Shown: in pieces, positions 5,155 through 55,205 of the stretch
How positions within the stretch are numbered: position 1 is the first letter of the stretch
Layout: every line of letters begins with the position of its first letter
Assembly: GCF_019312585.1 (NCBI RefSeq)
Contig: NZ_JAHWDP010000004.1
Coordinates: 1-64,000 of the forward strand
DNA from: Halomarinibacterium sedimenti
GTDB lineage: Bacteria; Bacteroidota; Bacteroidia; Flavobacteriales; Flavobacteriaceae
Direction: 5' to 3'
Length of the DNA stretch: 64,000 bases
Made by a program: the position numbers and the translations under genes
Notes under the pieces: generated by a model
Database searches by the model: none
The model's input: only the letters and a program-made list of their open reading frames with translations
Told to the model about the DNA's origin: nothing

Positions 5155-5748
5155 CTATTCTTCTTCGTCTAGCGATTTTGAAATATGATTTGCCACTAAT
5201 TTTTCGGCTTCATTCAAAGCTTTGTCAAGCTGATCGTTGATGATAATAAAATCGAATTGAGGGGCCGTTGCCATTTCTATAGAAGCTTTGGCAATACGCA
5301 TATTAATTTTTTCTTCGCTTTCAGTTTTGCGGTTTTTTAATCTAATTTTCAACTCATCCACACTTGGAGGTTTTACAAAAACCGCCAAAGTTTCTTTAGG
5401 AAATTTCTTTTTAATACGCAATCCGCCAACCACATCAATATCAAAAATTACATTTTTACCTTGTGCCCAAATGCGCTCTACTTCACTTTTAAGAGTCCCG
5501 TAAAAATTATCGCGATAGACTTCTTCCCATTCTAAAAAATCACCATTTTTTATGTGTTGTTTAAATTCCTTCAAATCCATAAAATAGTAATCTACACCGT
5601 GTTTTTCTTCACCTCTTGGCGCTCGCGAAGCTGCCGAAATGGAGAACTCCAAATTTAATTCAGGTTGTTTGAGCAGGTGTCTTACAATAGTTGTTTTGCC
5701 ACTGCCAGAAGGTGCCGAAAAAACAATTAATTTTCCTCCCTTTTTCAT
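5155..5748 (-). CDS. gmk: Guanylate kinase
   Basis: Phosphorylates GMP to GDP with ATP. The P-loop 'APSGSGKTT' is at about residues 11-19. The GMP-binding region includes 'SAASRAPRGEEKHGVDYYF' (about 38-56) and 'FLEWEEVYRDNFYGT'. The 197 residues are normal for the family. It overlaps the yicC stop by 1 nt and is followed by nadD at 1 nt, a tightly coupled operon seen in many Bacteroidota. Confidence 0.97.
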   Translation of the reverse strand: MKKGGKLIVFSAPSGSGKTTIVRHLLKQPELNLEFSISAASRAPRGEEKHGVDYYFMDLKEFKQHIKNGDFLEWEEVYRDNFYGTLKSEVERIWAQGKNVIFDIDVVGGLRIKKKFPKETLAVFVKPPSVDELKIRLKNRKTESEEKINMRIAKASIEMATAPQFDFIIINDQLDKALNEAEKLVANHISKSLDEEE

Positions 5749-6605
5749 TACAAAACATTTAGGGCTTGTTCCTTAATTTTTTCTAGCTCATCCTTCATTT
5801 GCACCACCAAATGTTGCATAGGGGCATAGTTGGCTTTACTCCCAATGGTATTAATTTCACGACCAATTTCCTGTGTGATAAAGCCTAATTTTTTTCCGTT
5901 GGAGTCTGAAGAATTTAAAGTTTCAACAAAATACTTTAAGTGGTTTTCGAGCCGAACTTTCTCTTCGGTGATATCGTATTTTTCGAGGTAGTAGATAAGT
6001 TCCTGTTCAAAGCGATTGGCATCGACGGTTTCTTTTAATTCTGAAACGGCTTTTTGCAATTTTTCCCTCACATGTTCAATACGTTCGGGATCTATTTTCA
6101 TTACTTCTTTTAGTAAATCTGAAATTATTTCAATTCTGCCTTTAAAATCGTCTTCTAGCACCTTTCCTTCATCACTTCGGTATTGATTAATGGCTGCCAA
6201 TGCTTCATCTACCCCTTTCATAATGTGTTTAAATTCATCTTCATCAATCTCATCACGTTCTGTTTTTAACGCATCGGGCATGCGTACCGCCATTTTTAGT
6301 AATTCGGTTTCGTCCCCATCCACAATATTCTTCATTTGATTCATATACTCCTTAACCACCACTTCATTAATCACGCTACTGGTAGCTTCTCCCGTCACCT
6401 CCACATAGAGGTTAAAATCCACTTTTCCGCGGGTAAGGGACTTGGCGATGTAATCGCGTAACACGAGTTCTTTTTCGCGATAGCTAGAGGGAACGCGTGC
6501 ATTAAGGTCGAGCCCTTTGCTGTTAAGCGATTTAATTTCGATGGTAATTTTTTTGGAAGGCAATTCGAGGATGCTTTTGCCGTATCCGGTCATGGACTGA
6601 ATCAT
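5748..6605 (-). CDS. yicC: YicC/YloC-type endoribonuclease
   Basis: 285 residues starting with the family signature MIQSMTGYGKS. The end, 'QEIGREINTIGSKANYAPM' (about 245-263), is the conserved C-terminal DUF1732-type region. Family members are RNases with a role in RNA turnover and stationary-phase survival. The ATG is followed by gmk and nadD in the same direction, so this is the operon's first gene. A likely promoter element lies 19 nt upstream. Confidence 0.93.
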   Translation of the reverse strand: MIQSMTGYGKSILELPSKKITIEIKSLNSKGLDLNARVPSSYREKELVLRDYIAKSLTRGKVDFNLYVEVTGEATSSVINEVVVKEYMNQMKNIVDGDETELLKMAVRMPDALKTERDEIDEDEFKHIMKGVDEALAAINQYRSDEGKVLEDDFKGRIEIISDLLKEVMKIDPERIEHVREKLQKAVSELKETVDANRFEQELIYYLEKYDITEEKVRLENHLKYFVETLNSSDSNGKKLGFITQEIGREINTIGSKANYAPMQHLVVQMKDELEKIKEQALNVL

Positions 6606-6631: not shown

Positions 6632-6646
6632 CAACTTTATGAAATT

Positions 6647-6988
6647 CTAATTTTCATTAAATTTTTCCTTTAAATACCTTTCAGTATAAGGAATAATCAA
6701 TAAAATAAGGAGTGTATTGGCTATGACCGTGAGTAAAAAATTATACTCTGGAATTACAAAATAAAACACCCCAGGAAACATAAAACTAAACAGGGCTAGT
6801 TGTATCGACTTTTTGGAGGCGTACTCTTGTGCGGCTTTCCAAGTTTCTTCATTTTTCATAGAACGTGAGGTTCTATAGCCGTACCACCAATTTATCTTTT
6901 TGGGAGGATATTTTTGCATGATAGCAAATAAGAGCAGAATAAAAGCACAATACCCTGTGGCCCAATAAAGTTGTGTCTCGACATCCAT
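6647..6988 (-). CDS. SdpI-family small membrane protein
   Basis: 113 residues with three hydrophobic segments (about 10-24, 60-77 and 82-100). The 'WWYGYRTSRSMKNEETWKAAQEYASK' region (about 34-59) is the conserved loop of SdpI-type proteins, named after the Bacillus SDP-toxin immunity protein. The role outside Bacillus is not known. It lies 5 nt after the DUF1080 gene 6994-7734 in the same direction and is probably cotranscribed with it, though a functional link to sugar use is not evident. Confidence 0.75.
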   Translation of the reverse strand: MDVETQLYWATGYCAFILLLFAIMQKYPPKKINWWYGYRTSRSMKNEETWKAAQEYASKKSIQLALFSFMFPGVFYFVIPEYNFLLTVIANTLLILLIIPYTERYLKEKFNEN

Positions 6989-51365: not shown

Positions 51366-51476
51366 AGGCAAGTACAAGATTTTGAGACTTTTAAAGTATA
51401 TAATTCTGTGGGAACTACATAATTAAGACCCAGATTTAACAAAATAGTTTAATTTTATAAAAACAGAAGTCCATTG

Positions 51477-52412
51477 ATGCAAATACCCCCTTATCTAAAA
51501 CGTGGCGATAGCGTTGCCATTGTTTCCACCGCTCGAAAAATTACAAAAGATGAGGTGCAACCGGCGTTAGCATTGTTAAAATCTTGGGGATTGAACCCTA
51601 TTTTAGGTAAGACCATTGGAGCTGAAAGCAACCAATTTGCTGGGGATGATGCCTTGCGAGCCAAGGATTTTCAGGAAATGTTAGATAATACTGAAGTAAA
51701 GGCCATTTGGTGTGCTCGAGGAGGGTATGGAACGGTACGAATGATTGATGCATTGGATTTTTCAAATTTTCTGAAACATCCTAAGTGGATTGTTGGCTAT
51801 AGCGATATTACGGTGTTTCATAACCATATACATACTTTAGGGGTAGTGACACTTCACGCGCAAATGTGTTTGGAAATTGAAAATAAAACGGAAGCCACTC
51901 GCGAAACCTTACGCAAAGCCCTTTTTGGAGAACCTTATAGTATAGAATATGCCCTTCCGGTGGCTTCGAGAACCTCAGCCACCTTACAACGTAGTGGCGA
52001 AGCTCAAGGACCCCTTGTTGGCGGTAACCTTTCGATGTTGTATTCCCTCTGCGGAAGTCCTTCTGCATTAAATACCCAAGGGAAGATTTTGTTTTTAGAA
52101 GACTTGGACGAGCATTTGTACCACGTAGATAGAATGATGCAAAACCTAAAACGCAACGGGATGCTAAAGGAGTTAGCAGGACTTATGGTGGGAGGGATGA
52201 GCGATATGAAAGACCACACACAGGCACACGGATTTGCAACCGATAGACCCTTTGGCAAAACCGCCGAGGAAATTATTTACGATACCGTAAAAGAATATAG
52301 CTACCCCGTTTGTTTTAACTTTCCTGCGGGACATATTAAAGATAACAGGGCGCTGGTGATGGGGCGAATGAGCAATTTAAAAATTGATGAAAAAAGGGTA
52401 TCTTTAAATTAA
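51477..52412 (+). CDS. LD-carboxypeptidase, peptidase family S66
   Basis: 311 residues from the ATG at 51477 (TTG at 51474 is also in frame). Family motifs: 'PPYLKRGDSVAIVSTARKI' (about 4-22), 'IWCARGGYGTVRMID' (about 77-91, Ser/Gly nucleophile region), 'GYSDITVFHNH' (about 106-116), 'LFLEDLDEHLYHVDRMM' (about 204-220) and 'FPAGHIKDNRALVMG' (about 282-296, catalytic His). It trims the terminal D-Ala of murein tetrapeptides during wall recycling. The gene is 8 nt from the next lipoprotein gene. A second, orphan 3' end of the same family lies 1.2 kb downstream. Confidence 0.92.
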   Translation: MQIPPYLKRGDSVAIVSTARKITKDEVQPALALLKSWGLNPILGKTIGAESNQFAGDDALRAKDFQEMLDNTEVKAIWCARGGYGTVRMIDALDFSNFLKHPKWIVGYSDITVFHNHIHTLGVVTLHAQMCLEIENKTEATRETLRKALFGEPYSIEYALPVASRTSATLQRSGEAQGPLVGGNLSMLYSLCGSPSALNTQGKILFLEDLDEHLYHVDRMMQNLKRNGMLKELAGLMVGGMSDMKDHTQAHGFATDRPFGKTAEEIIYDTVKEYSYPVCFNFPAGHIKDNRALVMGRMSNLKIDEKRVSLN

Positions 52413-52420
52413 AACTTGTT

Positions 52421-53617
52421 ATGAATCTAATAAAATCAATCGTAGTAATTATTATCACCATTGCGTTTTTTTCATGTAGTAATGATGATAAAACTTCCAC
52501 ACAAACCAATTTACCTCCTGGAGATTTTACATTGAGCGTTGAAGACATTGCTACTTTCTCTGCACGTGTAACTTGGACAGAATCACAAAATAATAGCGAC
52601 TCACCATTAACATACAAGGTGTATTTAAATGATGAATTACTAGGGGAAGAAATTACGGATAATGAATTTTTGATTACTGAACTTGAAAGTGTGACCAATT
52701 ATTCGGTTAAAGTTGAAGCAGTTAACGATTATGGGACAAAAAATGAGACCACTACTTTTGAAACATTAGAAATACCCGAATTATATTTTTTCAAGTTTTA
52801 CAATCCTAACAATCCATGTTTTTACGATGAAGTAAATTACCTTCCAAATAAAAAAACAGATAGTATTAAACGTTTTAGTTTGTGTACACCTCCTTATTAT
52901 GATAATATAAAATATAAATTTTCGTATGATAACGACGGAAAAATCATTAAAGTTCATGGAACAAGTAATACGTGGGGAACTGCTATAGAGAATTATTCAT
53001 ACAGTGGAATTAACGTCTCAAAAATAGATAGTTATTATGGTTGGGGAGCGGATGGAAGTGTTGTTGATACAATTACTTATACCCCCAATTTTACGGAATA
53101 TGAATATAGAAGATATCATTATGGTTTATCGAGCTATTATTTATTTGAAACAACCCAAAATTATATTTTAAATGGACCAGATGATAAATTGATACAGCAT
53201 AGAAAGAATATTACCTATTCTTATTTAGGTGAAGTGGGAGAAATAATTTATGATTTTGAGTATGAAAATGGAAATCTCATTAGAATTTCAGATTCCAATG
53301 GGGATTTTTGGGATATTGAATATGATAATGCACCAAGTTTTATTACATTTTCAATGAGTTTTGCTTCTAGTTGGCTGCCAGATCATGCTATTACTAAAGT
53401 TGCAGGGCTTTATCAACATAATGATGAAAATTTAATAAATGACCTAAATAAAATTCCAGAAATGTTTAATCATTTCAATACAAACAATCCAAGAATATAT
53501 AGGAAAAATGGGACTATTATAAGAGAGATTCAATACGAGTATAATATTTTTGGTTATCCAAGTAAAGTTATGATTGAAGGAATTGATGATATTCATATTG
53601 ATTATATAGAATTATAA
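52421..53617 (+). CDS. Lipoprotein with fibronectin type III-like domain, unknown function
   Basis: 398 residues. Lipobox 'FFSC' (Cys about 19). A fibronectin type III-like domain spans about 34-112 ('ATFSARVTWTESQ', 'YKVYLNDELLGEE', 'YSVKVEAVNDYG'). The rest has YD-type sequence ('YKFSYDNDGKIIKVHG', 'YDFEYENGNLIRISDSNG', 'IQYEYNIFGYPSKVMIEG'), typical of beta-rich surface lipoproteins. It is AT-richer than its neighbours and sits between an intact and a truncated LD-carboxypeptidase gene, which suggests insertion. Confidence 0.82.
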   Translation: MNLIKSIVVIIITIAFFSCSNDDKTSTQTNLPPGDFTLSVEDIATFSARVTWTESQNNSDSPLTYKVYLNDELLGEEITDNEFLITELESVTNYSVKVEAVNDYGTKNETTTFETLEIPELYFFKFYNPNNPCFYDEVNYLPNKKTDSIKRFSLCTPPYYDNIKYKFSYDNDGKIIKVHGTSNTWGTAIENYSYSGINVSKIDSYYGWGADGSVVDTITYTPNFTEYEYRRYHYGLSSYYLFETTQNYILNGPDDKLIQHRKNITYSYLGEVGEIIYDFEYENGNLIRISDSNGDFWDIEYDNAPSFITFSMSFASSWLPDHAITKVAGLYQHNDENLINDLNKIPEMFNHFNTNNPRIYRKNGTIIREIQYEYNIFGYPSKVMIEGIDDIHIDYIEL

Positions 53618-53624
53618 TTCCACT

Positions 53625-53804
53625 ATGGTCTACAACCATGAACTTGATAAACGTGGCGTGGAGATTATTTACGATGCTGTAAGAAAATACAGTTACCCCA
53701 TTTGTTTTAACTTTCCCGCAGGGCATATAAAAGACAATAGGGCGTTGGTGATGGAGCAGAAAACTACATTGCAAATTACGCCTACCACAGTACAATTTTT
53801 TTAA
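53625..53804 (+). pseudogene. Orphan 3' end of a second LD-carboxypeptidase gene
   Basis: 59-codon frame. Residues EIIYDAVRKYSYP through FPAGHIKDNRALVM (53661-53753) match 52269-52361 of the intact LD-carboxypeptidase at 27 of 31 positions. Many differences at DNA level are synonymous, so this copy evolved as a coding gene before loss of its 5' part. Its tail (KTTLQITPTTVQFF) matches the family's normal beta-strand end but not the intact copy's tail. The upstream 12 codons are not homologous. The catalytic His remains but the nucleophile domain is gone, so it is not functional. Confidence 0.8.
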
Positions 53805-53817
53805 AAATAGCTTAAAA

Positions 53818-54023
53818 GTTAGTTTTAAACTAACTGCAGTTAGTTAAAAGCTAACAGTAGTTACCGAAAAGCTAACTCGGGTTAGTAAAAAGCTAACAGT
53901 GGTTAGCTAAAAAGATACTTTTGTTACCGAAAAGCTAACTTGTGTTAGTTAAAAACAAACAAGTGTAACCAAAAAGCTAACCGTAGTTAGTTAAAAGCTA
54001 ACACAGGTTAATAAAAAGCTAAC
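53818..54023. repeat. Ten-unit tandem array, exact 21-bp period, quasi-palindromic 17-bp units
   Basis: Ten copies of a 17-bp unit, consensus GTTAGTTAAAAGCTAAC, each followed by a 4-bp variable spacer (tgca, agta, tcgg, agtg, tttt, ttgt, aagt, cgta, acag). Unit starts are 53818, 53839, 53860, 53881, 53902, 53923, 53944, 53965, 53986 and 54007, with no indel. Arms GTTAG / CTAAC are inverted; the first unit is a perfect GTTAGTTT-T-AAACTAAC palindrome. The right half (AAAAGCTAAC) is better conserved than the left. One frame would read as heptapeptides of K-L-T-x-V-(S/T)-(E/K) type broken by several TAA codons. It lies between the LD-carboxypeptidase remnant and the gene at 54095. Confidence 0.9.
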
Positions 54024-54094
54024 TTTTGAGGTTTTTGGACTAAAGGGGTGGTGTTGTGGATTTAGAAAATAGGATTTTGTATTTTAGCTGACAT

Positions 54095-54745
54095 ATGAAA
54101 GTATACATAATAATAATTTTTTTTCTAATTTTTTTCTCAGGTATTGGACAAATTGAAAGAAGCCCGACAATATTAGTACTCAATTCACAGAAAACAATTG
54201 TAGATAAGAAATATGATTCAATTGCAAAATTAATGGTTAGGAAGGGTCTGACTGAAGAGCATAAAAAAAGAATAAGAGAGTCGAACGCCGAGTTTCCATT
54301 AATATCAGAAAAAGAGATATTGTTTTTAGAAGAGGTTGATATTTCTACGCAAATACCATACGGAGTTTATTATATTTTAAGCTATAAGTTTTTTGAATAC
54401 TATCAAAATCTATTGATTTTTCCAGCTAAAGAGAATAATGATTCAAGTTTGGAACAATTAAATATAATATCTGAGAAATATGATACAAATTGGGTTGTAA
54501 ATATTCCTTTAACAGAGTTTTATTTTGAGAATGGAGTAAACAAAGGGATAGTTAAATACCAACTTTATAATAAAAAATCAAAAGAAATTTTAATAGAGAA
54601 AGAGTTAAATATTAATGATCATAACTTTGGAGGAGAAATGGCTTGTTTAGAAGGTACTATTAGTTGTGTAATTATGAACTCAATCTGGACAATATCTCTT
54701 GAAGTTTATAATTTCATGCTTAAAAATAAAATGTACTGGCGTTAA
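54095..54745 (+). CDS. Exported protein of unknown function
   Basis: 216 residues. A hydrophobic signal segment spans about 2-18 ('VYIIIIFFLIFFSGIG'). The rest contains 'YDTNWVVNIPLTEFYFENGVNKGIVKYQLYNKKSKEILIEKEL' (about 129-171), a beta-rich segment as seen in some lipoprotein-like proteins, and two Cys late (about 188 and 195). No known family is recognised. It is very AT-rich compared with yraN and mfd beyond it, and lies directly after the 21-bp array. Confidence 0.7.
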   Translation: MKVYIIIIFFLIFFSGIGQIERSPTILVLNSQKTIVDKKYDSIAKLMVRKGLTEEHKKRIRESNAEFPLISEKEILFLEEVDISTQIPYGVYYILSYKFFEYYQNLLIFPAKENNDSSLEQLNIISEKYDTNWVVNIPLTEFYFENGVNKGIVKYQLYNKKSKEILIEKELNINDHNFGGEMACLEGTISCVIMNSIWTISLEVYNFMLKNKMYWR

Positions 54746-54790
54746 CTTAAAAAGTATAATACCAAATCCAGTAGAGTTTAAATTCAATCA

Positions 54791-55153
54791 ATGGCCTACC
54801 ATAACGAACTCGGCAAATTAGGCGAGGAGCTCGCCACACAATACCTGCTTAGGGAAGGGTACAATATCCTGGAGCGTAATTTTGTGTACGACAAAGCTGA
54901 GATCGACATCATTGCCCAAAAAGAGGAAGGTGTTATCGTAATTGTGGAGGTTAAAACCCGTAATAGTGCTGCGTTTGGGAATCCACAGGAGTTTGTTTCA
55001 AAAAGTAAAATAAAATTATTGGTCAAAGCTGCAAACGAGTATATCATCGACCGCCAACTCGACGCCGAGGTACGGTTCGATATTATTGCCGTGCTTAAAA
55101 ACAAAAAGGAAGAACGCATCGAGCATTTTGAGAATGCGTTTTATCATTTTTAA
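54791..55153 (+). CDS. YraN / UPF0102 family endonuclease-like protein
   Basis: 120 residues. 'LGKLGEELATQYLLREGYNILERNFVYDKAEIDIIAQKEEGVIVIVEVKTRNS' (about 6-58) holds the PD-(D/E)xK-type core (Glu, Asp, then ExK in VEVKTR). The family resembles archaeal Holliday-junction resolvases; its role is not settled. It is a single gene followed by a REP-like element. Confidence 0.92.
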   Translation: MAYHNELGKLGEELATQYLLREGYNILERNFVYDKAEIDIIAQKEEGVIVIVEVKTRNSAAFGNPQEFVSKSKIKLLVKAANEYIIDRQLDAEVRFDIIAVLKNKKEERIEHFENAFYHF

Positions 55154-55174
55154 TATTTGTCATTCAGGAGTTTA

Positions 55175-55193
55175 CACTGAGCCTGTCGAAGTG
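55175..55193. repeat. REP-like palindromic element
   Basis: CACTGAGCCTGTCGAAGTG, a short sequence with inverted CACT/AGTG ends that I know as widely repeated between genes in many bacteria. A related GTCCTGTCGAACTC occurs upstream of ssb at 43155-43168. Confidence 0.5.
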
Positions 55194-55205
55194 TGAGCAC
55201 AGCAT

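Follow-up and report, generated by a model that had tools for sequence, protein, structure and literature searches.

Origin and structure of the array

In the window, the 64,000-nucleotide stretch of Halomarinibacterium sedimenti DNA analyzed here, a string of ten short units at 53818..54023 on the + strand raises the question of whether the repeat is read as DNA, as RNA or as protein. A sequence-only reading had described ten 17-bp units with a strict 21-bp period. This description is accurate, as the units start at 53818+21n and are all exactly 21 bp apart. They follow the consensus GTTAGNNAAAARCTAAC and are each followed by a variable 4-bp spacer. Unit 1 (GTTAGTTTTAAACTAAC) is inverted, while units 2-10 are direct repeats, and it is indeed the palindrome that had been proposed, with perfect 8-bp arms flanking one central base. 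With its palindromic edges, AAAAGTTAG ... CTAACTTTT, the array covers 53814..54027, and these edges are common to the two related arrays at C8 and C9 described below. TRF calls repeats at 53817-53913 (period 21) and at 53830-54023 (periods 21 and 63), and the lag-21 self-match is 0.66 over 189 bp, compared to a maximum of 0.44 in 200 simulated 64-kb order-1 Markov windows. The exact left arm GTTAG is present in six of the ten units and the exact right arm CTAAC in eight. The suggestion that the right half is better conserved therefore holds for the exact arms, but the advantage is marginal because the mean pairwise identities of the two arms are alike (0.84 and 0.85). The array was correctly set apart from CRISPR, since its spacers are 4 bp long and its units vary.

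The GTTAG unit forms three arrays in the same genome (G000): the ten units in the window, ten units on the minus strand at C8:562191-562396, and five units at C9:340394-340494. All 16 genome matches with 0-1 mismatch fall inside these arrays. With two mismatches allowed, the pattern has 27 matches, 23 of which are within the three arrays, and the reversed control has 25, so the total is not informative by itself, and what stands out is the grouping at 21-bp intervals together with the 16 close matches. The first unit is inverted in both the window and the C8 array, and the order of the unit variants and the spacers differ among the three arrays. Identity between the arrays is 0.82-1.00 in the arms and 0.89-0.95 in the A-tract, and at the chance level of 0.21-0.33 in the spacers. 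Judging from the sequences, kept units with free spacers would be expected from selection on a shared recognition sequence, not from duplication with neutral decay. The proviso that the array would be a local slippage product if no other copy existed does not apply, given the two further arrays in the genome.

Outside G000, 16 of 39 other genomes contain 1-4 scattered matches to the 17-bp pattern, at or below the control level and never as arrays. A stricter pattern was found in two of 299 genomes, namely G000 and G151, the latter with one single match in coding-looking DNA. The array at C8 is placed between an open reading frame of 161 amino acids, here called ORF-A, and a gene for a 117-aa protein with a Cro/C1-type helix-turn-helix (HTH) and a leucine zipper (C8:561802-562152, minus strand), and is directly upstream of the latter. 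The C9 array has no HTH gene and is accompanied by a promoter region that only weakly resembles the leaders of the modules described below (44 nt, 75%). A fourth array in this genome, with a different unit (C8:122822-123040), precedes a paralogous HTH gene, and the order of ORF-A, array and HTH gene seen at C8 is also found in the relative G043.

Association of the arrays with a family of HTH proteins

A profile of three proteins (1e-12) identified six copies of the HTH family in G000 and three in G043, while the remaining 247 of the 249 genomes drawn from the bacterial family had none. A scan of named genomes gave 28 HTH loci, mostly from Aequorivita and some from other Bacteroidota MAGs, and a further search of 395 genomes of the phylum with a 30-member profile gave matches in 15, including G000.

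The array is tied to this one HTH protein family across genera. All nine HTH genes of G000 and G043 have an array of the 21-bp series upstream, which is weaker in three of them (L083, L084 and L085). The strongest period belongs to the 21/22 series in 24 of the 27 loci of the 28-locus scan that have upstream DNA, and the HTH frames are truncated or broken in the three exceptions. At a self-match threshold of 0.58, a 21/22-bp-series array lies upstream of 30/30 HTH genes and of 2/153 control genes, which are other genes of the same loci; the corresponding numbers are 30 and 3 at 0.55, 28 and 1 at 0.60, and 25 and 0 at 0.65. Excluded before this count were L103, L105 and L106 (truncated or broken HTH frame, no array signal) and L113 (no upstream DNA), and the 30 genes include two near-identical pairs (L087/L088 and L098/L100). 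Among the readings originally proposed for the window array, the evidence supports that of a series of putative protein-binding sites.

An independent set of family genes from seven genomes outside G000 contained arrays at 9 of 11 genes at the 0.58 threshold, which L157 just reaches, and at none of eight generic XRE genes, which are weak profile matches (best self-match 0.48). The two family genes without a clear array are those of L158 (0.51), where another gene abuts the HTH gene, and L163 (0.54, at lag 64). In G527, all four loci (L160, L173, L176 and L178) combine a 22-bp array with an HTH gene, and an ORF-A homolog is located upstream in three of them (L160, L173 and L178), while L176 starts near a contig end. 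The L160 locus also contains a TATATTTG box and a leader ending in AACAAGTTGGGC. Arrays with a 21-bp lag were also seen at L075 2030-2570 (G054), which has long open frames on both strands, and at L076 2130-2340 (G049), with no HTH-family gene among the nearby listed open reading frames.

The partner protein is about 117 amino acids long and contains a Cro/C1-type HTH and a C-terminal leucine zipper, for which the libraries searched have no specific family name. Its membership in the Cro/C1 (XRE) HTH superfamily is indicated by the AF2 model, Foldseek and Pfam HTH_26. The AF2 model has a pLDDT of 86 and a long C-terminal helix, and Foldseek matches it best to XRE-type regulators and antitoxins, with probabilities up to 1.00 but E-values above 0.02. 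Pfam HTH_26 is matched by five of nine family members at E-values up to 1 (best 2.3e-5). Among 27 pattern stretches from a search of viral contigs, none is related to the HTH family. Within the protein, conservation is lower in the DNA-binding half (0.36-0.37) and higher in the C-terminal half (0.58-0.62).

Array anatomy and probable co-divergence with the HTH protein

The anatomy was studied in thirty arrays, which include two near-duplicate pairs (L072/L087 and L080/L082). According to the fitting script, these contain 4-12 units, with a median of 9. The spacing between units is 21 bp in 177 cases and 22 bp in 30 cases, with nine double steps (42-44 bp). Spacings of 20 and 23 bp did not occur, although the fit allowed 20 bp, with a penalty, in arrays fitted to 21 bp and 23 bp in those fitted to 22 bp. 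The distance from the array end to the HTH start codon has a median of 30 bp (range 0-141). Dyad symmetry is significant (p<0.05) in 10 of the 30 arrays, compared to an expectation of 1.5, and the other 20 have no significant dyad. Unit sequences differ strongly between modules, so that each module has its own unit. Searches for orphan arrays of two other unit types, the L080 type in G043 and the L071 type in G000, returned clusters only in the modules' own arrays.

By a first measure, similarity between arrays did not go with similarity between proteins (rho 0.003). A second measure, based on log-odds with a column-shuffled null and applied to the 23 modules that have six or more units, gave Mantel correlations with the array of 0.24 for residues 1-23, 0.295 for residues 24-49, 0.285 for residues 50-78, 0.186 for the zipper and 0.312 for the whole protein. 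Since the correlation is spread over several segments, it is not a property of the recognition helix alone. In partial Mantel tests, the array correlated with residues 18-58 given the rest of the protein (r 0.294, p 0.0005), and with the rest given residues 18-58 the values were r 0.101 and p 0.11. The 18-58 boundary was set afterwards and the second measure replaced the first, so both were chosen on the way. With the measure and the boundaries chosen in this manner, we read the tracking of the DNA-binding half by the unit as suggestive of protein-DNA co-divergence.

Genes and signals surrounding the modules

ORF-A is located upstream of the array in 18 of 34 loci, and by eye a terminator-like hairpin often precedes the array. 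It represents an all-helical family of about 162 amino acids that recurs across genera (L009 3400-3885, L072 1902-2393, L160, L173 and L178). No significant Pfam family was identified for ORF-A, and its all-helical model had no structural match with an E-value below 3.9. In L085, the gene at 2137-2577 occupies the ORF-A position upstream of an array, and we take this to be contractile-tail-tube-like.

Downstream of the array, the motif TAnn(n)TTTG, which is the -7 promoter motif of Bacteroidota, is present within 40 bp of the HTH stop codon in 21/33 loci, compared to 15/190 control stops. Variable genes follow after the HTH gene. Among the first downstream genes, 9 of the 20 scanned have a Pfam match at 0.001, with no family occurring twice. 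The sequence TATAACNAGTTG is present at nine places in G000, while the control gave one. Four of these places are behind complete modules and two are behind 3' remnants of HTH genes (L149, with an array, and L154). Inspection by eye placed two of the remaining ones in promoter-leader regions where no HTH gene was seen, and one apparently inside coding DNA. HTH-less states thus exist besides that in the window, as both C9, with its array and promoter region, and L149, in which the array, an HTH remnant and the leader are kept, illustrate.

The array in the window as an orphan

Core genes bound the region of the window array on both sides. Within it, the array has an accessory gene on either side and is preceded by a broken duplicate of one core gene's 3' end. 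On the left is a gene for an LD-carboxypeptidase (Peptidase_S66), here named ldcA (51474..52412, +), followed by an accessory gene for a 398-aa protein with an fn3 domain (52421..53617, +) that by eye looks like a lipoprotein. The 3' end of ldcA is then repeated in broken form (53649..53798, +), covering residues 262-311 with 62% identity, directly ahead of the array. Directly downstream of the array is a gene for a 216-aa protein with a hydrophobic start, as judged by eye, and no Pfam family (54095..54745, +), which is the candidate for an array-controlled gene. The right-hand core gene (54791..55153, +), which is presumably of the yraN family, adjoins ldcA directly in several relatives. There is no recognizable HTH remnant or module leader beside the array; it is therefore an orphan whose binder would come from C8, if from anywhere, and for the same reason it is possibly a dead leftover.

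The ldcA/yraN site was matched in 28 of 31 genomes, and a scan of these 28 loci with 1.5-kb flanks, some of them cut by contig ends, found no conserved array. It returned the window array itself and one heptamer repeat, in G014, which only mimics the 21-bp period. The latter is of the TGAGAAG type, is located between ldcA and the right-hand core gene at about 1260-1400 of L122, and is unrelated. No intact repeat-protein gene, the finding that would have pointed to a pseudogene, was present at the orthologous sites that were read. The same-genus genome G001 has another gene between ldcA and the right-hand core gene (L120 692-1672), presumably DNA-methylase-like, which indicates that the site gains different genes. 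Phage records gave no match for 53600-54100, which together with the searches of viral contigs and plasmid records led us to reject a phage or plasmid origin.

Alternative explanations for the arrays

That the arrays act as RNA, as a transcribed string of hairpins that is processed or binds protein like the repeats of type III antitoxins, is an improbable explanation. The hairpin reading originally offered does fit the window array, which folds well (z -6.2 against shuffles), as does the C8 array (z -8.7), and across the thirty arrays z is below -3 in 10 and below -2 in 13. However, it is not general, as z is above -1 in 10 of the 30 arrays (-0.14 in L099), and a hairpin RNA was on this ground rejected as a general account. 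An RNA would moreover have no need of an exact period of 21 or 22 bp, the similarity between units tracks the DNA-binding half of the protein, and a search of 52300-55200 against Rfam returned nothing except one match far below the gathering score (E 0.13). The other reading first proposed, that of a decayed coding heptad (K-L-T-x-V-S/T-K), is hardly credible any longer and is refuted as a general account. One frame does read KLTxVS/T-K/E/Q with synonymous-looking differences, and one module (G043, L072) has an open frame of 76 codons, but 22-bp modules shift the frame at every unit, 22 of the 30 arrays have no fully open frame among the six while 8 have one, and all three GTTAG arrays, including that in the window, contain an in-frame TAA. 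A minisatellite with no function, propagated through slippage and gene conversion, for which the 21-bp-lag repeats in G054 and G049 with no HTH family seen nearby and the heptamer repeat at the same site in G014 could be cited, is very improbable. Slippage alone would not yield randomized spacers between units that are alike within and between loci, nor does it fit the close association with a single protein family in different genera.

Alternatively, the array might mark sites of accessory-gene insertion or recruit the machinery to them, with the HTH protein serving as a recombination accessory. This is consistent with the finding of different modules and accessory genes at identical genomic sites in different species (L091/L097/L100/L101 and L092/L098/L099), and with the motif [AT]AACnnGTT in the leader behind the HTH gene in 11/33 loci, compared to 5/190 control stops. 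In L095, the HTH gene is separated from a leader-like end (6640-6700, GTATAAACAAGTTAGTGGC) by a gene for an XerA/IntI-like tyrosine recombinase (5368-6492), and the start of another gene follows the leader-like end. We nevertheless consider this explanation unlikely. The variable genes join beyond the HTH gene and not at the array, and L095 is the only case with a neighboring integrase, which scores 182 bits, below the TIGR02249 integron-integrase cut-off of 265 bits. None of the five tyrosine recombinases in G000 exceeds this cut-off (best 149.8), and none is of the L095 type, the best match being XerD at 30% identity. Closer relatives of the L095 recombinase occur in G043, G527, G417, G611, G714 and G716, and the five loci of such relatives that were read, L182-L186, have neither an HTH family gene among the listed open reading frames nor a clear array. 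A weak AT-rich signal at lag 22 (0.58) upstream of an unrelated gene at about 3390-3520 of L184 (G611) is not clearly an array.

A model for array function

We favor the interpretation, to which we assign a probability of roughly 0.65, that the window array consists of tandem recognition sites for a Cro/C1 HTH-zipper protein and is, as an orphan, bound in trans by the C8 protein. It contains the unit of the C8 module and has no HTH gene of its own, which makes the C8 protein its probable binder in trans. According to this model, HTH dimers would line up next to each other along the same face of the helix, at units two helical turns apart (21 or 22 bp), and an HTH protein bound upstream of its own gene would adjust its own transcription. 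The array and the DNA-binding half would diverge together, so that each module would keep a private specificity. On the window array, the C8 protein would most likely repress or tune the neighboring accessory gene at 54095-54745. We infer the binding, the action in trans and the regulatory effect from sequence comparisons, and the window array may possibly serve as a protein sponge or be a dead remnant.

More tentatively, and at odds that we place below even, the modules may represent a hitherto undescribed chromosomal platform of the Bacteroidota, composed of ORF-A and a terminator, a private array of about ten units at 21 or 22 bp, the HTH-zipper gene, a promoter and leader, and an exchangeable accessory gene. 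The array and the DNA-binding domain would co-diversify under selection against cross-talk between the several platforms of one chromosome, a nucleoprotein filament on the array would decide the expression of the captured gene, and orphan arrays like that in the window would subject further accessory genes to the protein of an existing platform.

Comparison with known systems

The iterons that precede plasmid rep genes are direct repeats of about 17-22 bp that are located two helical turns apart, upstream of the gene for the protein that binds them. In the modules, direct repeats in phase at about 21 bp similarly precede an HTH gene, whose product is the putative binder. However, this product is a 117-aa Cro/C1 HTH protein with a zipper that matches no Rep family in Pfam or NCBIfam, and a search of 72,556 plasmid records gave no match for the C8 protein. 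The parC-type centromere arrays of ParR and TubR consist of about ten direct repeats adjoining the gene for a small DNA-binding protein. No motor gene is among the two recurring neighbors of the modules (ORF-A and HTH), and the modules differ in that several paralogs are present per genome, each with its own unit. The controller (C) proteins of restriction-modification (R-M) systems and the XRE antitoxins HigA, HipB and GraA belong to the same fold class as the modeled HTH protein and have autoregulatory operators beside their own gene. These operators consist of one or two dyads rather than about ten phased units, and no toxin or R-M partner recurs beside the modules.

Integrons combine a promoter (Pc), an att site and cassettes, and the modules resemble them in two respects: a promoter-like box at the HTH stop codon faces outward, and a leader is followed by variable genes. 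They differ in that none of the five recombinases in G000 reaches the integron-integrase cut-off and in the array itself, which has no integron counterpart. Inspection by eye showed no complementary attC ends. In contrast to type III toxin-antitoxin systems, the gene behind the module arrays encodes an HTH protein and not a ToxN-type endoribonuclease, while the window array is followed by the gene for the 216-aa protein, which matches no Pfam family.

Phased multi-site arrays that adjoin the gene for their binding protein have precedents. What distinguishes the modules is that they form a chromosomal paralogous family with a private array sequence for each copy, the copies sharing only the two-turn spacing and the protein family. 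A narrow search of the open-access literature found no description of the pairing of array and HTH gene. Heptamer repeats of the TAACTGA type are likewise intergenic and in many cases located upstream of start codons, and they are also reported from one Aequorivita (PMC4679880). They have a 7-bp unit of unrelated sequence, and the candidate binding proteins proposed for them belong to other families (PMC4679880).

The modules would provide a natural series of matched protein and DNA pairs in which the divergence of specificity without loss of function can be studied. In addition, they flag the places where accessory genes are exchanged, and many of these genes have no known family. As 11 of the 20 scanned first downstream genes have no Pfam match at 0.001, the modules point to unexplored gene content. 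Finally, inspection by eye showed a dispersed CTTCGACAAGCTCAGTGTGACA-type repeat, or fragments resembling it, near several modules, at about 3985-4060 of L009 and about 1320-1420 of L085, and at about 55170-55205 of the window.
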